Source: Lactobacillus sp. ESL0677 (lineage in GTDB: Bacteria; Bacillota; Bacilli; Lactobacillales; Lactobacillaceae). From it: a stretch of 64,000 nt of DNA. Where the stretch lies: positions 1,488,001 to 1,552,000 of the forward strand of contig NZ_CP113946.1 of the NCBI RefSeq assembly GCF_029392875.1, read 5' to 3'. Numbering within the stretch: the first letter of the stretch is position 1; every line of letters begins with the position of its first letter. Below, piece after piece: positions 6,138-50,319 of this stretch. The notes under the pieces were generated by a model. That model was not told the DNA's origin. It was given only the letters and a program-made list of their open reading frames with translations, and ran no database searches. Made by a program: the position numbers and the translations under genes.

Positions 6138-8960
6138 ATGCAAATTTTAGAAATTTCAATTAATCATATGCATGAACCAATTGGTTTTGATTTTAGTAAT
6201 AGAGTTCGAATAGAATTTAGTGCTGAAGTTGAAAACAAAGTTGATTCAGTTCAAAAAAGATTAATTATTAAAACGGATAGTCCAATTTTTGATTCATCTT
6301 GGCAAAGCTACGACAATAATGTTTTTGATGAAGCTATTCCTCTAGAACCTCGCACTCGCTACACAGTAATCATTCAATTAAAGCAAGCCGATGAAATTAG
6401 CGAAGGTTCAACATTTTTTGAAACAGGAAAAATGTCCGAAGCTTTTAAAGGTAAATGGATTGGTAACTCAAACAGTGATTTACAAAATACACTATTGCGG
6501 AAACATTTTAAAATTGAAAAGCCAATAAAAAGTGCTCGGTTATACATTACTGGTCTTGGTTTATATGAAGCCTACCTTAATGGTGAAAAAATTGGTAATG
6601 AATTTCTCGGTCCTGGTGTAACAGCCTACGATAAATTAATTCAAGTCCAAACTTACGATATCAACAATTTTTTAACTAATAACTCACAACAAGAACTGCT
6701 GATTTCCCTTGGTGATGGCTGGTATAAAGGAAACTTCGGCTTCGATGGTGGCAAAGACAATATCTATGGCTCAAGACAAATGGCACTAGCTGAATTACAC
6801 ATTAACTACCAAGATGGTACAAGTGACGTGATATTAAGCGATCATTCATGGCAAACAACTGCTGGAAAAATTACTAAATCAGCAATTTATTATGGTGAAG
6901 ATTATGATGACAGAATTGCCATCACTAATTGGCAGCCAGCAGTAGAAATTGATCATTCATTTGCGCCTTTGCATGATCGACTAAGTTTACCAATTAAGAA
7001 TCATGAATTTTTGCCAGTTAAGAAAATCATTCATACTCCAAAAGGAGAAACTGTTTTAGACTTTGGTCAGAACCATGCAGGTTGGCCAGAATTTTTAAAT
7101 CATGAACCTACTGGAACGACTGTTAAATTGCAGATGGGAGAAATATTGCAAGACGGCAACTTCTATCGTGACAATTTACGTGAAGCCAGAGCTGCTTTTG
7201 TTTATACATCGGATGGCAAAGAAAAATGGGTGCGGCCCCACTTTACTTACTATGGTTATCGCTATGTCAAAGTTACAGGTTTGACCAAACCAATTTCTGC
7301 AGCCGATTTCCGTTCAAATGTTATATACTCTGATATGAAAGTCACTGGCGGCATTACTACAAATAATTCAAAAGTTAATCGTCTGTTTCAAAATGTTCTT
7401 TGGGGACAAAAGAGCAACTTTATGGATGTACCAACAGATTGCCCTCAACGTGATGAACGCTTAGGCTGGTCTGGAGATGCGGATGTCTTTTCAGGAACAG
7501 CTGTTTTAAACATGAACAGTTATGCTTTCTTTAAAAAATATGCTAAAGATATACTGATTGAACAAAAAGAACATCATGGCATGTTAACGATGTACGCTCC
7601 AGCTATGGGTGTCGATGATGGTGGTGCTGCCGTTTGGGGCGATGCCGCGACTATTATTCCGTGGACAGCATATTTGTCTACTGGTGATCCTGCAATTTTA
7701 AGACAGAATTATTCAGAAATGAAAGCATGGGTTGACTGGATTAGTGCTCATAGTTCAACACCGAATCTCTGGACTGGACAATTTCAATTTGGAGATTGGC
7801 TTTCACTAGATGGTGAAAATCCTGCACTTCCAACTGGTAAAACAGATGAGGATTTTATTGCTTCAGTATATTACTATTATTCAACCTTAATTGTCTCTAA
7901 AACTGCTAAAGTACTTAAACTTAAAACAGACGAGGCTGATAAATATTTAGTAAGGGCTAAAAAAATAAAAGAAGCAATTCGTAAAGAATACATTACTCCA
8001 AATGGTCGGTTAGCAATTGATACTCAAACTGCTTACGCGTTAGCTCTGTACTTTAATTTAATTCCAGAAAGCCAAAAGAAGCGCGTAGTAAATGACTTGG
8101 TTACTAGACTAGATAAAGATAATAATCATCTTAAAACAGGCTTTGTTGGTACGCCAATAATTTGTCAGGTCTTATCAGATAATGGGTATCATAAGCTGGC
8201 AACACAGATTTTCTTAAATGAAGATTTTCCAAGTTGGCTATATGCAGTTAACTTAGGAGCAACGACGGTTTGGGAAAGATGGAATTCTGTATTACCTGAT
8301 GGTTCGATGAATCCTGAGGTAATGAACTCGTTAAATCATTACTCTATTGGAGCAATTATGCAGTGGGCATACAAATATGTTTTGGGGCTTAAAGAACAAA
8401 CAAATGGTTATCAAAAGGTTCTACTTTCACCACAATTTGACTACCGCTTAAAGCATGTTACTGGCTTTTATGAAAGTTCATATGGTCAATTAAAAGTAGA
8501 TTACCAATTGGAAACTGATGAAAATCATACCGTAAAGATAAAACTTGAAGTTCCGTTTGGTCAAACCGTTAATTTAGAGCTTCCTAACTATCAAGAAGGT
8601 AGTATTAAAGTTAATGGATTACAGACGGATGACAAATTAACTTTAACAAACGGCATATTTAATATTACCTTTATACCTCAAACTAGCTATATTGAACATT
8701 ATTCTTTAAATATGCCGGTTAAACTATTAATGAGTGATTCAGAGTTACTTACACAGCTGACGCCAATTAATTCAGTATTTTCATTTTTTAAAGACAAGAC
8801 AAACTTGGACAATTTAGGTTCAATGTCATTAAAGCAACTAAATACCATGTTACCCTTTATTAATATTTCCGATACTGACTTCAGTAAAATTGAGCAGATA
8901 TTAAAACAAACACCATTATCAGAAGAAAGGAAGTTTTTGCATGAAAGGCGTTCTCTTTGA
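6138..8960 (+). CDS. Alpha-L-rhamnosidase, GH78
   Basis: A 940-residue enzyme expected to remove terminal alpha-L-rhamnose from glycosides such as rutinosides. The N-terminal beta domains are followed by the (alpha/alpha)6 barrel, whose hallmark D-C-P-Q-R-D-E-R-x-G-W-x-G-D-A lies near residues 434-448. Further barrel residues include G-D-W-L-S near 553. A beta domain closes the typical enzyme near residue 850, and about 85 further residues form a helical, polar tail. No signal peptide is present, so substrate must be imported. The ribosome-binding site is weak; the gene begins 18 nt after GH3 and its end overlaps pgmB by 20 nt, so all three are probably co-transcribed. Confidence 0.94.
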   Translation: MQILEISINHMHEPIGFDFSNRVRIEFSAEVENKVDSVQKRLIIKTDSPIFDSSWQSYDNNVFDEAIPLEPRTRYTVIIQLKQADEISEGSTFFETGKMSEAFKGKWIGNSNSDLQNTLLRKHFKIEKPIKSARLYITGLGLYEAYLNGEKIGNEFLGPGVTAYDKLIQVQTYDINNFLTNNSQQELLISLGDGWYKGNFGFDGGKDNIYGSRQMALAELHINYQDGTSDVILSDHSWQTTAGKITKSAIYYGEDYDDRIAITNWQPAVEIDHSFAPLHDRLSLPIKNHEFLPVKKIIHTPKGETVLDFGQNHAGWPEFLNHEPTGTTVKLQMGEILQDGNFYRDNLREARAAFVYTSDGKEKWVRPHFTYYGYRYVKVTGLTKPISAADFRSNVIYSDMKVTGGITTNNSKVNRLFQNVLWGQKSNFMDVPTDCPQRDERLGWSGDADVFSGTAVLNMNSYAFFKKYAKDILIEQKEHHGMLTMYAPAMGVDDGGAAVWGDAATIIPWTAYLSTGDPAILRQNYSEMKAWVDWISAHSSTPNLWTGQFQFGDWLSLDGENPALPTGKTDEDFIASVYYYYSTLIVSKTAKVLKLKTDEADKYLVRAKKIKEAIRKEYITPNGRLAIDTQTAYALALYFNLIPESQKKRVVNDLVTRLDKDNNHLKTGFVGTPIICQVLSDNGYHKLATQIFLNEDFPSWLYAVNLGATTVWERWNSVLPDGSMNPEVMNSLNHYSIGAIMQWAYKYVLGLKEQTNGYQKVLLSPQFDYRLKHVTGFYESSYGQLKVDYQLETDENHTVKIKLEVPFGQTVNLELPNYQEGSIKVNGLQTDDKLTLTNGIFNITFIPQTSYIEHYSLNMPVKLLMSDSELLTQLTPINSVFSFFKDKTNLDNLGSMSLKQLNTMLPFINISDTDFSKIEQILKQTPLSEERKFLHERRSL

Positions 8961-43974: not shown

Positions 43975-45391
43975 GTGTCCACCTTGTTCCCTGTGGGGTA
44001 TCCTGAATTGTAATCCCCAGCTCTTTTAATTGATCGCGCAATTGGTCGCTCTTAGCCCAATCCTTGTTTTTGCGTGCCTCATCGCGTGCCTTAACTAATG
44101 CCGTAATTTCCTTATCATCACTTGTTTGCGACTTTTGAATTAATTTAGCCGTATCAATGCCAAAAATGCTGAGCCACGCACCCAATAATTCTTTAGCTTG
44201 TGCCAACGCCTCTTTATCAGCTTTCACGCTATTGGCATTAGCGTTAACTAGCGGCAACAAATCATAAATCGCTGCTAAAGCATTTTGCACATTAATATCG
44301 TCATCCATTGCGGTAACAAACTTCGTTTGCGTTTCTTGGATAGCCTGCCGCAATTGGGTTGAAGTGCTTTCAGAAGTGGCATCCTCTAAGCGATAGTTAA
44401 TATTAATTAGCGTATTTTTAAAACGCTGCAAAATATTCTTCGCCTGCTCCAGATTCTCCTGTGAGTAATTAATTTGCTTGCGGTATTGCACACTTGCCAT
44501 AAAGAAGCGTAATACCTGTGGGTCAACTGTTTTAAGCAAGTCATGCACCGTCACAAAATTATGCAGCGACTTCGACATTTTTTCTTCATCATGACCAACA
44601 GTTACAAAGCCATTGTGCAACCAATAATTGACAAACTTTTGACCTGTTGCGGCTTCACTCTGCGCAATTTCATTTTCATGATGCGGAAATTCCAAGTCTT
44701 GACCGCCACCATGAATATCAATTGTCTTGCCCAGATATTTAGTCGACATTACTGAACACTCAATATGCCAACCTGGTCGACCTAGTCCCCACGGCGATTG
44801 CCACGCAATCTCATCAGGCTGCTTCTGCTTCTTCCACAGGGCAAAGTCGATTGGATCTTCCTTGCGCTGCTGCTCCTCATCATTGACATGCTCAGAGGCA
44901 CCTTCTTCAAGTTCGGCAATGTTCTGACTGCTTAATTCACCATAATGCTTGAACTTTTTAGCACGGTAATAAACATCACCATCAGCTTCATAAGCATAAC
45001 CATTTTTAATTAATTGTTCAATAAATTCGATAATTTCAGGAATTTCATGAGTTGCTCGGGGATGCTTAGTTGCTGGCTCCACATTTAGCGCCGTTGTATC
45101 TTCAAGGTAACATTTAATATAGCGAGCAGCGAGTTCTGGCACAGTAATGCCCTCAGTTCGCGCTTCATTAATCATCTTGTCATCAACATCTGTAAAGTTA
45201 GAGACGTAGTTCACCTTATATCCGCGATACTCAAAGTATCGCCGAATTGTATCAAATGCAATCACACTGCGTGCATTCCCAATGTGAATGTAATTATAAA
45301 CTGTTGGGCCACAGACATACATCGAGATTTGTCCTGCAACTAGTGGCTTAAATTCTTCTTTTCTCTTTGTCAAAGTATTATAAATTTTCAT
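43967..45391 (-). CDS. cysS: Cysteinyl-tRNA synthetase
   Basis: A 474-residue class I synthetase. Zinc and ATP motifs are [13 protein letters not shown] and K-M-S-K-S. AGAGG precedes the ATG. In relatives gltX lies directly upstream; here 10 kb of accessory genes intervene. No T-box leader is evident in the 180 bp upstream. Confidence 0.98.
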
Positions 45392-45586
45392 GGCTAAGCC
45401 TCTCTTCTGTTAATAGCTATTCCCATTTTAGCAGAATCCAACCAACTTGCTAACCTCCAGGCAGGAATTGCCATCAATTTTGCTTTAATAGTTATTAAAA
45501 AATTATTTTGACTATTATTTTGAATTTTTCTGACTATAATATTAGTATCGAAACTAAATAACATATAGTATATGAAGGTGATAGAT

Positions 45587-45889
45587 ATGAAAATTACAAT
45601 TACTAGATTTTTTCATCAACATTATTTTGTTTCATGCATGATTCTATATACAATAGCTAATTTTATTTTTGACACCATTGGTTTGGCTTTAGGTCACTCG
45701 CCTAAGATGTTTTTAGCTGATGCAATATCTGCATTAGTAATGATTGTTGGCGGCTTTTGGGTAGAAAAGCGCATCGATCCTAATAAGAACGAATGGAGCG
45801 AATTATTTACAATGGCTGGCTATGCTGTTGTTTATATTGTCATTTGTGTTGCTGTGCGACTTATTAGTATGTATCTTTTGCACGTCTGA
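45587..45889 (+). CDS. Small membrane protein, tandem family copy 1
   Basis: A 100-residue protein with about three membrane segments and a hydrophilic loop E-K-R-I-D-P-N-K-N-E-W-S-E-L-F between the second and third. No family recognised. AAGGTGAT precedes the ATG (45587), chosen over an upstream ATG at 45572. It is one of three genes whose start codons are exactly 312 bp apart; copies 1 and 2 are very similar from the L-G-H-S-P-K-M motif to the end. Confidence 0.75.
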   Translation: MKITITRFFHQHYFVSCMILYTIANFIFDTIGLALGHSPKMFLADAISALVMIVGGFWVEKRIDPNKNEWSELFTMAGYAVVYIVICVAVRLISMYLLHV

Positions 45890-45898
45890 GGTTAGATT

Positions 45899-46201
45899 AT
45901 GAAAATCGCAATTAAGAACTTTTATTATCGCCATCGAATCGTTTCAGGTATGACATTATATGCCATAATGAATATTATTTTTGACATTATCGGACTATCC
46001 TTAGGACATTCACCCAAGATGATTTTAACTGATATGATAACTGCAATTGCATTGATTATCGGCGGTTTTTGGGTAGAAAAGCGCATCGATCCTAATAAGA
46101 ACGAATGGAGCGAACTATTCACAATGGCTGGTTGCGCTCTACTTTATCTTGTAGTTTGTGGTGCTGTACGGCTTATCAGTATGTATCTTTTACACGTTTG
46201 A
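45899..46201 (+). CDS. Small membrane protein, tandem family copy 2
   Basis: A 100-residue paralogue of copy 1 with the same three-segment layout, the G-L-S-L-G-H-S-P-K-M motif after segment 1 and the identical E-K-R-I-D-P-N-K-N-E-W-S-E-L-F loop. GAGGT lies 7 nt before the ATG, 10 bp after copy 1. No known domain recognised. Confidence 0.75.
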   Translation: MKIAIKNFYYRHRIVSGMTLYAIMNIIFDIIGLSLGHSPKMILTDMITAIALIIGGFWVEKRIDPNKNEWSELFTMAGCALLYLVVCGAVRLISMYLLHV

Positions 46202-46210
46202 GGTTAGATT

Positions 46211-46507
46211 ATGAAAATTATAATTAAGAATTTTTATCATAAACATCAAACTATTTTGGTTGTTTTAATAATTGGCCTTTGTAGTTTAGATACATATTGG
46301 AAATATTTGTTCTCTAACTCAATTAGGGCAACGATTTGTAGTGCTGTCCTTACAGCGCTAACAATGCTAATTGCGTATTGCGCCCATTTCTTTGCCTTTG
46401 ACATCAACAATGCCACTTGGAAACAATTACTTTCTGCTGCGGGAATCTTTTTCCTGTGGCTAATTGTCGAATTTGGTGGTCAAGCCTTCCTAATACTAAA
46501 TTTTTAA
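46211..46507 (+). CDS. Small membrane protein, tandem family copy 3 (divergent)
   Basis: A 98-residue protein with the same start, length and about three membrane segments. It lacks the L-G-H-S-P-K-M and E-K-R-I-D-P-N-K-N motifs; the loop reads F-D-I-N-N-A-T-W-K-Q-L-L-S-A-A-G, aligning with the E-W-S-E-L-F-T-M-A-G stretch of the others. Same GAGGT ribosome-binding site as copy 2. Last gene of the small operon, ending at a terminator. Confidence 0.7.
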   Translation: MKIIIKNFYHKHQTILVVLIIGLCSLDTYWKYLFSNSIRATICSAVLTALTMLIAYCAHFFAFDINNATWKQLLSAAGIFFLWLIVEFGGQAFLILNF

Positions 46508-46513
46508 CAAATA

Positions 46514-46549
46514 AAAATGCTACTTCAAATTAAATTGAAGCAGCATTTT
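46514..46549. terminator. Terminator of the tandem membrane-protein operon
   Basis: AAAATGCTACTTCAA (46514-46528) pairs with TTGAAGCAGCATTTT (46535-46549), with one mismatch. Confidence 0.87.
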
Positions 46550-46597: not shown

Positions 46598-46867
46598 CTA
46601 AAACCAAGTTGCCGAACTTCGAGCAACATCTTCATTGATGTTTGGCTTACTCAACTGAATCAGCAATTGTACTCCTGCTTTAGATAATTGCCTTTTAAGG
46701 GCAAGCTCAGTCAAAGCAGATTGCACATTAGTTTTAACCAAATATAGATTTTCGTGCTGGTTTAATTTAATAATTGCTTGTTTAATAATGAACTGTTCAT
46801 TGGTATTGGTAAGTTGCTGTTGTTGCAATAATTTAAGTAGCTCAAAGTTATGTTTAGATTTTTTCAT
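46598..46867 (-). CDS. Small helical protein, possibly bacteriocin immunity
   Basis: An 89-residue soluble, helical, Gln/Leu-rich protein (L-L-K-L-L-Q-Q-Q-Q-L). Length and the heptad-like pattern resemble the four-helix EntA-type immunity proteins, but I see no diagnostic motif and no bacteriocin structural gene nearby. AGGAG lies 10 nt before the ATG. It converges on the tandem membrane-protein operon. Could equally be an unrelated hypothetical. Confidence 0.5.
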   Translation of the reverse strand: MKKSKHNFELLKLLQQQQLTNTNEQFIIKQAIIKLNQHENLYLVKTNVQSALTELALKRQLSKAGVQLLIQLSKPNINEDVARSSATWF

Positions 46868-47005
46868 TATCGCTCATGCTCCTACTCTTATTTATTAATA
46901 ATATAACACTATTTTTTGTTTCGATTACAATATTTTGTTTTATAATATTCTTATTAAGATTAAAAACGTATAGTATAAATATAAAGCAAAGTGAAGTAAT
47001 TACTG

Positions 47006-47380
47006 ATGTTTGAAATTAACTTGACTAAAAAACAAATAATGTGGTTAATAGCAATTTTACAAGTAGCATTTGCCGGAATTGATTATTACATTAATCGTCC
47101 AAATGCAGATTTAACCAGTGTTATTGCTTACCTAGCAATTGGTCTTCTATTCTTAGGCTTATCTTTTTCCAAACGCTTAACTTCTGGAGAAACTATTAAA
47201 AAAGCCGACATGACCAAAAATCAAAAACTTGAACAAAAATTTGAACTTGGCTTTTTAGTTTTTATATTATTGATGACAATTATCGACTATTCGGATATTG
47301 GCTTTAATTTATTGATGATCGATTGCAGCATAATGGATTTACTAATGTCACCTCTACCTGATAAATCAATAGCAAAATAA
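47006..47380 (+). CDS. Small membrane protein of unknown function
   Basis: A 124-residue protein with about four hydrophobic segments in two pairs (about 11-28, 40-54, 78-96 and 99-115) separated by a Lys-rich loop. No family recognised; it does not resemble the 312-bp family. Both hydrophobic hairpins contain an I-D-Y motif (G-I-D-Y-Y and I-I-D-Y-S), hinting at an internal repeat. Ribosome-binding site weak (AAGTGAAG). Confidence 0.6.
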   Translation: MFEINLTKKQIMWLIAILQVAFAGIDYYINRPNADLTSVIAYLAIGLLFLGLSFSKRLTSGETIKKADMTKNQKLEQKFELGFLVFILLMTIIDYSDIGFNLLMIDCSIMDLLMSPLPDKSIAK

Positions 47381-47383
47381 CAT

Positions 47384-47418
47384 AAAAACGTATTATCTTC
47401 ACCAGATAATACGTTTTT
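47384..47418. terminator. Bidirectional terminator
   Basis: AAAAACGTATTATCT (47384-47398) pairs perfectly with 47404-47418 around TCACC, between converging genes. Confidence 0.9.
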
Positions 47419-47430
47419 CATTGCCTTTTT

Positions 47431-48651
47431 TTAATTTCTTCTAAATAAACTAAGCTTGCGTTTTGACCAGTCTTGTTGCAACATCAATCTGCCATAACTC
47501 TTGCCAATATAATAGACGGCTAGAATAATTGCTACCATTAACAGCAGCAATGAACCTATAATTTCTATCACATTGACATTGCCGCCAAATACCCGCAAAG
47601 GCATAAAGTAAGATGAAAATAATGGTACATAGGACAAAATTTTAACCAAGACTGCATGAGGTTGCGTTGCGTATGTCAGTGCCAGAATAAAGGCAACAAC
47701 ACAAATCATTGTTGGCCATTGTGCCGCCTGAGACGCATTTGCACTAGACTTAGAAATGGCGCCGAAATACGCTGCCAGAATAACATAAGCAGTCACGCCC
47801 AAAATAATATACAACATTGCCGACCCTAATAAATTATGCAAAATTTGTCTAATCAAGCTCTGATTAGTAGTTAACCAATTGCGTGCAGACTTTATATGCT
47901 GTGCAAAAGGCCATGCAATAAAGCCAAAGGCAATATAAGATACCATTTGGGTAATAATCATTAGTAAAATAGCAATTACTTTGCCACAAAAGTATTTTTC
48001 AGGTGTAGTGCTCGAAAAGATAATTTCGATAATCTTATGTCCCTTATCGGCAACAACTTCCTGGGCCATAATTGAGGAATAAATTAAGATCACGAAATAC
48101 ACTACAAAAGTAACTACCATAAACGTAATCATTTTAATCGTCGTGTCATTAGCCTTGCCCGTAACCTGTTTGATTTTAAGCTGAGGCCGCGTTTGCAGTT
48201 CTTTGATTTGCTTAACAGTTAAACGAGCCTGCTGAACATTTACTGCAGTCTGCAACGCATTAATACTTGGAGCTAAATCCTCCTTATCAGGCGCATTATC
48301 AGAGTCGCCTTGATAAAATTCCGCTTGCAACCTGCCCTGTTTTTCATTAAGTACAAGATAGCCCTGCAGATCGTCTTTTTTAGTTAGCTTTTCTGCTTGT
48401 TTACTTGAAGTAACTGCACTTTTAACCTTCAATTTCTTATTTTGGCTAATGAACGCCTGTTTCAACGCCGGCTGCGAACTAACTACCGCAATTTTAGCGG
48501 TGCTGGAATCGCCGTTACTTGCCGTAAAGTAGCCTATTCCCATCCCAATAGCCAGAATTAAAAACGGCCCAAAAATTAAGGACAGAAAACTCCATGACTT
48601 AACTTGTCTTGAGTAGGTTTCGCTAATAATCGTCCATAATTTACTCATCAT
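47431..48651 (-). CDS. ABC-2 type exporter permease (NatB/YhaP-like)
   Basis: A 406-residue membrane protein. An N-terminal membrane segment (about 20-43), an extracellular domain (about 45-175) and then about five segments match NatB-type permeases. Its start overlaps the ATPase gene by 11 bp. With the ATPase it would form an exporter for ions, peptides or toxic compounds; the substrate is unknown. Confidence 0.85.
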   Translation of the reverse strand: MMSKLWTIISETYSRQVKSWSFLSLIFGPFLILAIGMGIGYFTASNGDSSTAKIAVVSSQPALKQAFISQNKKLKVKSAVTSSKQAEKLTKKDDLQGYLVLNEKQGRLQAEFYQGDSDNAPDKEDLAPSINALQTAVNVQQARLTVKQIKELQTRPQLKIKQVTGKANDTTIKMITFMVVTFVVYFVILIYSSIMAQEVVADKGHKIIEIIFSSTTPEKYFCGKVIAILLMIITQMVSYIAFGFIAWPFAQHIKSARNWLTTNQSLIRQILHNLLGSAMLYIILGVTAYVILAAYFGAISKSSANASQAAQWPTMICVVAFILALTYATQPHAVLVKILSYVPLFSSYFMPLRVFGGNVNVIEIIGSLLLLMVAIILAVYYIGKSYGRLMLQQDWSKRKLSLFRRN

Positions 48652-49531
48652 TCTTACCTGCCTTCATCCGGAAAATCTCGTCCAAGCTAAGTGCTTCTTG
48701 ACTGAACTGCTCAATATATTGTCCTTGTGTTAGCTGAATAAAAATTTGCTTACCGGCTTCTGGCGTTGTCAGTTTAAGTAAATAATGTTGCGGCGACAAC
48801 TTTCTCACACTTTTCACACCAGTAAGCTCAGCTAATTGCTGCTCAGTCCAATCTGTCGTCACAAACAAATTAATTTTACCGAACTGATTGCGCACCTCAT
48901 TAACGTTGCCACGCAGCACTATCTCCCCTAGGTTGAGCATCACAAGCTGGTCACAGACTTCTTCGACATTAGCCATATTATGACTAGAAAAAATAATCGC
49001 GGCGCCATTTTCTTTTGCCGATAAGATTGCTTGCTTGAGCAATCCCGCATTTACCGGATCAAGACCGCTGAAAGGTTCATCAAGAATAATTAGTTTAGGC
49101 TGATGAATCAAGGTACAAATTAGCTGCACTTTCTGCTGATTACCCTTAGATAGCAGCTTAATCTTGGTCTTACGATCACCTTTAACTTCAAAGCGCTTGA
49201 GCCAATCATCAATTAAGCTCGAGCTAGCATTAAAGTCCTTCAATTTTGCCAGATACTTAATTTGCCGCTCAATTGTCAAATTAGGTAGCAGACTTCTTTC
49301 TTCTGGCAAGTAACCGATTTGATCAAAAGCTGATTCAGTAATCATCTGGTCCTGCCAAGTGATATTGCCTTCATAAGAAAATAAATTTAAGATACTGTGA
49401 AATAGTGTTGACTTTCCCGCACCGTTTTGCCCGATTAAGCCCAGAATTTGCCCTGGCTCAACAGTAAAAGAAACATCTTTCAGCGCGGCCAGTTCACCGA
49501 AATTTTTACTAACATGGTCAATTTTTAACAT
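48641..49531 (-). CDS. ABC transporter ATP-binding protein (NatA-like)
   Basis: A 296-residue ATPase. Walker A is G-Q-N-G-A-G-K-S-T, the signature L-L-S-K-G-N-Q-Q-K, and Walker B L-I-I-L-D-E-P-F-S-G-L-D-P. The S-K-G-N-Q-Q-K signature and a C-terminal extension of about 80 residues are typical of NatA/YhaQ exporters. AGGAG precedes the ATG at 49531. Confidence 0.92.
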   Translation of the reverse strand: MLKIDHVSKNFGELAALKDVSFTVEPGQILGLIGQNGAGKSTLFHSILNLFSYEGNITWQDQMITESAFDQIGYLPEERSLLPNLTIERQIKYLAKLKDFNASSSLIDDWLKRFEVKGDRKTKIKLLSKGNQQKVQLICTLIHQPKLIILDEPFSGLDPVNAGLLKQAILSAKENGAAIIFSSHNMANVEEVCDQLVMLNLGEIVLRGNVNEVRNQFGKINLFVTTDWTEQQLAELTGVKSVRKLSPQHYLLKLTTPEAGKQIFIQLTQGQYIEQFSQEALSLDEIFRMKAGKNDE

Positions 49532-49607
49532 ATTATCTCCTTTCATGACTTATATCAAAATTATATAAAAGTTAATATGTAAATACTAGGCTATTTTTGC
49601 TAATATC

Positions 49608-50216
49608 TTAATATTTATGATGGCGATATAACCAAGCTCCTACTAAAAATCCGGTGCCTAATCCTACCGACATGACAACGCCTCTAACTTGGCCAATAAT
49701 TAGGCTCAACCCGATTGTTAGCCCAATTACCAATATGACTTCCACGTATTTTCCTTTATTGCTTGTCAAAAATTTCTGCCAGCCATATTCCAAGCCTAAA
49801 GATTGTGATTGATCAAAGCTATTTACGTCCATCAAGGCTGAGCACAGCGTCAGGTCGCTAATCCAGAATAAAATCATTGCTATAGTTGAAACATCATCTT
49901 TTGCAAGTACTGCACTTAAGCCAACAACTAACATTCCGATAACAGCAATCACCAGTTTTTTCTTAATTTGTTTCAGATTATTAACAACTTCACGCTTTTC
50001 CAGATTTTCGCGCATCCCAGAATCCTCTTTCAGCAGTTCATCAAGTGTAATCTGGTAATAATCGCTTAGCTTAATCAAGCTACCAATGTCGGGATAGGAT
50101 TTTTCATTCTCCCAATTTGAAAGTGTCTGTCTAGTGATGGCAAATTCTTGTGCTACTTGTTCCTGCGTTAAATTTTTAGCGAGCCGCGCTTGCCTTAGAT
50201 GTTCACCGAACCTCAT
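49608..50216 (-). CDS. XRE-type HTH regulator with membrane domain
   Basis: A 202-residue protein. Residues 1-65 are a Cro/C1 helix-turn-helix (R-L-A-K-N-L-T-Q-E-Q-V-A, then T-R-Q-T-L-S-N-W-E-N). A charged linker is followed by about four membrane segments (from residue 95), so the DNA-binding domain is tethered to the membrane. GGAGGAG precedes the ATG at 50216. It sits 76 bp before the ABC exporter genes on the same strand and probably senses the exported or membrane-damaging agent. Confidence 0.88.
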   Translation of the reverse strand: MRFGEHLRQARLAKNLTQEQVAQEFAITRQTLSNWENEKSYPDIGSLIKLSDYYQITLDELLKEDSGMRENLEKREVVNNLKQIKKKLVIAVIGMLVVGLSAVLAKDDVSTIAMILFWISDLTLCSALMDVNSFDQSQSLGLEYGWQKFLTSNKGKYVEVILVIGLTIGLSLIIGQVRGVVMSVGLGTGFLVGAWLYRHHKY

Positions 50217-50319
50217 TATTTGCTCCTCCATTACACCATTAATTTTGCTTAATTTTTGATGAAAGTTCAAGCAAAGATTCTTTGCATGCTGATTTATCAA
50301 GGTTTTTGCCAATTAAAAA

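Follow-up and report, generated by a model that had tools for sequence, protein, structure and literature searches.

What do three small membrane-protein genes standing in tandem beside cysS contribute to Lactobacillus sp. ESL0677? The genes, here called A, B and C, occupy positions 45587 to 46507 of a 64,000-nucleotide stretch of DNA, which we refer to as the window (NCBI RefSeq assembly GCF_029392875.1, contig NZ_CP113946.1, positions 1,488,001 to 1,552,000 of the forward strand). We propose, with a probability of about one half, that the segment from cysS to position 47380 is an orphan bacteriocin-immunity island, and that A, B and C, together with a fourth copy, D, found in one relative, form a new, lineage-restricted family of three-helix membrane proteins that would protect against the membrane-permeabilising peptides of neighbouring lactobacilli. 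The extension of an immunity role to A, B and C draws on their neighbourhood and their form; it is the best reading because two neighbouring genes, encoding proteins of 89 and 124 residues, are of immunity type, because no exporter was found, and because the proteins have the small, multi-helical form on record for the immunity proteins of two-peptide and some leaderless bacteriocins (PMC8538875). Genomes used for comparison carry G numbers and loci L numbers.

The Tandem Array

A preliminary description of this DNA recorded three genes at exact 312-bp spacing, encoding membrane proteins of 98 to 100 residues, two of them with a common loop and the third diverged. Each of these points holds. 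Gene B starts 312 bp after A and gene C 312 bp after B (Table 1), and the products, of 100, 100 and 98 residues, each show three hydrophobic peaks in the hydropathy profile. The spacing is less remarkable than it first appears: A and B both consist of 100 codons and a stop, and an identical 9-bp spacer, GGTTAGATT, stands after each of them. C is shorter, and in genome G055 D begins 330 bp after C. An alternative start of gene A at 45572 would give a product of 105 residues; the motif AAGGTGA, which resembles a ribosome-binding site (RBS), sits before 45587. Genes A and B constitute a direct repeat of 300 nt that is 78% identical, well above chance. Their proteins are 71% identical and share the loop EKRIDPNKNEWSELF without a single change, while C is 26% identical to A and 21% identical to B. 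Gene C nevertheless begins, like B, with MKIxIKNF and retains the signature D-x-N-x3-W-x2-L-x3-A-G. In an alignment of all 14 copies seen except the interrupted C of G054 (13 in all), the residues M1, K2, I5, F8, S38, D64, W70, L73, A77, G78 and L98 are invariant. The predicted model of B contains three helices at low confidence (predicted local distance difference test, pLDDT, 60.4; predicted template-modelling score, pTM, 0.33). A, B and C are thus small integral membrane proteins, as are the class II bacteriocin membrane immunity proteins. The hairpin that follows C, A/T-rich on both flanks, is probably a terminator common to the array and the gene that converges on it.

Table 1. Features of the array and its neighbourhood (positions in the window).
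Feature	Position	Strand	Description	Basis
Gene A	45587..45889	+	100 residues, three hydrophobic segments	Open reading frame (ORF), RBS-like AAGGTGA, hydropathy
A-B spacer	45890..45898	+	9 bp, GGTTAGATT	Read from sequence
Gene B	45899..46201	+	100-residue paralog of A, 71% identical	Beside A in 3 of 5 genomes
B-C spacer	46202..46210	+	9 bp, GGTTAGATT, same as A-B spacer	Read from sequence
Gene C	46211..46507	+	98-residue diverged paralog	ORF, alignment
Hairpin	46514..46549	. (listed on - strand only)	15 bp, between convergent genes	
89-residue protein	46598..46867	-	Predicted helical bundle, convergent with array	Fold
124-residue membrane protein	47006..47380	+	Family whose members adjoin GG-leader peptide genes at some other loci of the genus	
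Hairpin	47384..47418	. (listed on both strands)	15 bp, 3' of 124-residue gene; end of island on this side	

The Immunity-Type Neighbours

The predicted fold of the 89-residue neighbour resembles those of LciA, PedB and the mundticin immunity proteins, and the protein has a probable bacteriocin-immunity (LciA/PedB/EntA_Immun) fold. It gave no match to EntA_Immun (PF08951, cut-off 22.1 bits) at E up to 1, nor in the genome search; a paralog in the same genome scores 29.4 bits against that cut-off. A profile of the 89-residue family matched none of the solved structures by sequence. In another genome, G043, a region (L098, 6044-11632) looks like a bacteriocin gene cluster: it holds an ATP-binding cassette (ABC) exporter of the C39 type, a partial accessory protein, small membrane proteins and an EntA_Immun-like gene, with two double-glycine (GG)-leader peptide ORFs in overlapping frames at 7966-8326 and a third past the exporter.

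The 124-residue protein has relatives in 18 of 75 genomes of the genus (E up to 0.01), some of the weakest lying in long frames, and its family has no match above the Pfam or NCBIfam cut-off. In G007 (L125, 4519-6335) three members are interleaved with two GG-leader peptide genes and a piece of a Peptidase_C39 gene, and one of the peptide genes overlaps the 3' end of a family member by 4 bases; for the two peptides the Bacteriocin_IIc scores are 24.4 and 24.5 bits, below the cut-off of 27.1. Similarly, in G042 (L130, 3772-5116) one member is accompanied by a fragment of a second, which over 48 residues matches a member from G007 at 60% identity, and by one GG-leader peptide that has no Pfam match. 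Two members stand side by side in G033 (L126, 4852-5667). A GG-leader match at 1819-2130 of L126 was rejected as spurious, being antisense to a 424-codon gene. Judged by eye, the surroundings of L126 and L127 are housekeeping genes, and an ABC transporter gene lies near L128 and L129. Thus two of the six further loci of the family (those of G007 and G042) are credibly bacteriocin-like, and the family looks bacteriocin-linked. The 124-residue gene appears to be decaying in some strains; it has an internal stop in G051 (L029, near 4040) and appears split into two matches in G042 (L091, 6459-6740).

Is there a bacteriocin for these genes to accompany? A search at E up to 0.01 for Peptidase_C39, by which GG-leader exporters are recognised, found none in the five array-carrying genomes and none in their array-less relative G052; the control search was positive in 8 of 14 known genomes, including Lactococcus lactis. 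A pattern scan for GG-leader ORFs of 30-120 residues found none in the window or in four island loci, and likewise none in any of the 24 cysS loci scanned (of 30 fetched). No bacteriocin structural gene was seen by this pattern next to A, B and C, and orphan immunity genes are by definition without one. A, B and C are accordingly better said to work like class II immunity proteins than to be proven members of that class. We also considered A and B as GG-leader precursors themselves, a loose pattern having matched a GG within the second transmembrane segment (TM2). This was rejected: a stricter pattern gave no match, what would be the leader is a hydrophobic helix, the GG is absent from C, and no C39 exporter was found.

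A Narrow Family with Varying Copy Number

The preliminary description recognised no known domain in the three proteins, and our searches agree. Matches in Pfam and NCBIfam were all below cut-off, those in PHROGs were weak and of unknown function, PADLOC returned nothing, and a sequence comparison with solved structures gave three weak, unrelated matches. A housekeeping or otherwise known family was accordingly rejected for A, B and C, no characterised housekeeping family having been matched. Among about 5.8 billion proteins, a single-sequence search returned four, including the A and B of the window itself, and a profile search at E up to 10 returned nine, from the genes' own lineage only. The named proteins come from Lactobacillus sp. 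ESL0679, ESL0680, ESL0701, ESL0703 and ESL0731; P0010 and P0013 lie on a 66-kb contig. The ESL strains presumably come from bees; a literature search for five of the strain names gave no paper.

Within the genus, 5 of the 75 genomes searched (G000, G049, G051, G054 and G055) carry full-length relatives; ten more with matches of E 0.003 or worse only were excluded from the count. The five are closest by CysS, at 97-100% within G000, G049 and G055 and 92% for G051 and G054. Profile searches of 397 family genomes and 395 order genomes gave a match in 30 (E up to 0.05) and 5 (E up to 0.005), respectively, and beyond the window's three genes nothing was better than E 8e-4. We discarded these distant matches as noise, judging from the tables rather than from individual loci, since most match the profile in part only and several are interrupted by stops or belong to far longer frames. 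No relatives of A, B or C were found among plasmids, phages and viral contigs, and plasmids searched with one relative each of the 124-residue and 89-residue families gave no match. By sequence comparison, A, B and C are a narrow family that is undescribed in the libraries searched. We found no paper on it, a result judged from titles and the starts of abstracts, with most subscription papers beyond reach, so that absence from print is unproven. The novelty lies in the protein family; small membrane immunity proteins as a kind are already known.

In all five genomes the array is flanked by cysS and the 89-residue gene and includes an A-type gene. Its composition is A-B-C in G000 and G049, A-B-C-D in G055, and A with C in G051 and G054, the C of G054 being a pseudogene with two internal stops. 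Copy number thus varies between strains, from two to four genes, rather than being fixed at one. The nearest array-less relative by CysS (85%), G052, served as outgroup. It aligns to the window at 45380-45459 and then again from 46772, and it still carries a 36-residue piece from the start of the 89-residue gene, which indicates that this gene was formerly present there and has mostly been lost.

Beyond the 124-residue gene the genomes vary as well. By eye, G000 and G049 have an ABC transporter pair and a helix-turn-helix regulator, and G051 and G054 a regulator without the ABC pair. In G055 (L031, 4745-9286, compared with window positions 47431-50312) there is a cluster with IIC and IID genes of a mannose-family phosphotransferase system (PF03609, PF03613). 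Mannose-family phosphotransferase systems are the receptor type of LciA-linked bacteriocins. Finally, the AT-rich stretches before gene A (45557-45572) and before the 124-residue gene (46962-46977) are alike, with a 16-nt match of 88%; by eye they look conserved in relatives and are possibly a shared promoter or operator. In a promoter scan, promoter-like sites were no commoner than in shuffles (13 versus 11.3).

Age, Gene Conversion and Selection

How old are the copies, and what has kept them alike? They had been taken for a recent amplification under selection for variation, and neither part of that view was borne out. In a tree of codons 1-55, the A genes and the B genes of G000, G049 and G055 form separate clades (support 98/96 and 100/100). 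Over these codons the synonymous divergence (dS) between A and B, 0.70-0.99, is similar to that of cysS across the two species groups (0.85-0.98), which places the duplication at roughly the time when those groups separated.

In codons 56-100 the copies are intermixed, with none of the five inner branches of the tree starred. Ortholog dS in this half is 0.23-0.81, exceeding that of cysS in the same pair (0.21-0.29) in seven of seven pairs; the corresponding values for the 5' half are 0.03-0.22. For example, between the A genes of G051 and G054 there are 8 differences over the 165 sites of the 5' half, against 23 over the 135 sites of the 3' half (Fisher p 0.0009). Over the seven ortholog pairs such tests gave p 0.0009 to 0.62, with five under 0.05, the pairs being non-independent and the p values uncorrected. 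Runs of A-B identity reach 48 nt in G000 and 55 nt in G049, with different start points, lengths attained in 0 and 3 of 10,000 shuffles; the longest run in G055 is 20 nt, a length within chance expectation (P 0.41). When the clades expected for the 3' half were put to approximately unbiased tests, the p values were 0.122, 0.077 and 0.118, none of them reaching 0.05. The 3'-half ortholog dS, the asymmetry between G051 and G054, and the long identity runs lead us to favour gene conversion acting locally within the 3' half, which the sequences support but do not prove.

The ratio of replacement to synonymous divergence (dN/dS) is 0.28-0.37 over the whole 5' half and 0.03-0.11 over the 3' half. 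In loop 2 (codons 59-75), between the second and third helices, the three within-genome A-B pairs pooled give proportions of differing replacement and synonymous sites (pN and pS) of 0.008 and 0.54. In G055 8.0 of 8.3 synonymous sites of the loop differ, compared with 1.0 of 42.7 replacement sites. The conservation of the loop thus reflects purifying selection and not just recent copying; in G000, where 2.0 of 9.0 synonymous sites differ, local conversion may contribute as well. The N-terminal tail (pN 0.32, pS 0.26; 13 codons) and TM2 (pN 0.24, pS 0.29; 17 codons) are near neutral, and the first transmembrane segment, TM1, is intermediate (pN 0.17, pS 0.68). Because the codons are so few, the values for the tail and TM2 are no proof of positive selection.

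Discussion

The immunity-like role suggested in the preliminary description stands as far as the setting is concerned, with the 89- and 124-residue genes on one side of the array; no sequence link from A, B and C themselves to an immunity protein was found. How do they compare with immunity proteins already described? According to the portion of PMC8538875 available, the class IIb two-peptide immunity proteins LagC and LciM have four transmembrane domains and CbnZ has one. A, B and C resemble these varied sequences in being small membrane proteins, and are set apart, by description, in having three predicted segments and no bacteriocin gene found beside them. The same portion describes AurI and AucIA as cationic immunity proteins for leaderless bacteriocins, AucIA with three putative transmembrane regions; the likeness to A, B and C, again by description, lies in the membrane location and, for AucIA, the three segments. 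The fold predicted for LciA, PedB and EntA_Immun belongs to the 89-residue neighbour, itself without a Pfam match, and not to A, B or C. The 124-residue proteins are likewise small membrane proteins with clustered copies (G007, G033), and differ in giving no profile match to A, B and C.

Several observations weigh against the proposed island. A, B and C show no similarity to immunity proteins in Pfam, NCBIfam, the protein profile search or solved structures, none to the 124-residue family by profile comparison, and none to two small membrane proteins that adjoin relatives of the 89-residue protein; the model of B is poor. The best Foldseek E-value for the 89-residue model is 0.21, and GG-leader matches occur at 1 of 12 loci of its family. 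For the 124-residue family the bacteriocin-like loci number only two, and the Pfam matches of their peptides are all below cut-off. The shared location of A, B and C with their neighbours is a single event, observed in five genomes through inheritance, one copy of C is broken, and in G042 the 89- and 124-residue genes stand together at another place without A, B and C, which are therefore not needed by that pair. The missing similarity to immunity proteins says little, because such proteins are structurally very varied, as the available part of PMC8538875 describes them.

Could A, B and C have quite another function, in envelope stress, as a transporter partner or as small-protein modulators, and lie by chance beside two immunity-type genes? 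We regard this as unlikely, if not very much so. The lack of any homology found to an immunity family, the G042 pair, and the organisation of the array as a convergent unit with its own hairpin all speak for it. Against such a coincidence, both immunity-type genes adjoin the array in a genome where the searches found two members of each family, and changes in copy number together with a pseudogene would be unusual for a core envelope function. That A, B and C are instead membrane-active toxins, leaderless bacteriocins or holin-like proteins, with the 89-residue protein as their immunity partner, is improbable. They are small, hydrophobic and multi-copy, and adjoin a gene of probable immunity fold; but a protein of about 100 residues with three membrane helices is long for a leaderless bacteriocin, the searches described above revealed neither a C39 exporter nor, by the stricter pattern, a GG leader, and G042 retains the supposed antidote without the toxin. 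Still less probable is a decaying family without selected function, kept only through duplication and conversion, for although the C pseudogene, the near-neutral N-tail and TM2, and a G052 deletion spanning this place would suit it, the substitutions in loop 2 indicate strong purifying selection.

Returning to the orphan immunity island, we can outline how its membrane proteins might act. From the pattern of constraint and charge, A, B and C would be seated in the membrane so that the N-tail and the charged loop joining helices 2 and 3 face the cytoplasm. The D-x-N-x3-W-x2-L-x3-A-G loop, which is conserved, may contact a shared partner, for example a bacteriocin receptor or its pore, and the paralog-specific N-tail, TM1 and TM2 might determine which peptide is countered. 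We put forward, as a doubtful elaboration, that this is a two-module immunity family, in which the paralog-specific N-terminal half recognises the bacteriocin and the common C-terminal half, with its constrained cytoplasmic loop, is kept similar, and partly swapped, among copies by gene conversion.

Orphan immunity genes help to decide whether a strain survives beside bacteriocin producers, and membrane-type immunity proteins are so varied that they are often named by position. If the two-module design is correct, new copies would confer protection against new peptides. The intact paralogs of this array, with their differing N-terminal halves and common C-terminal half, would offer a test of which part sets specificity.
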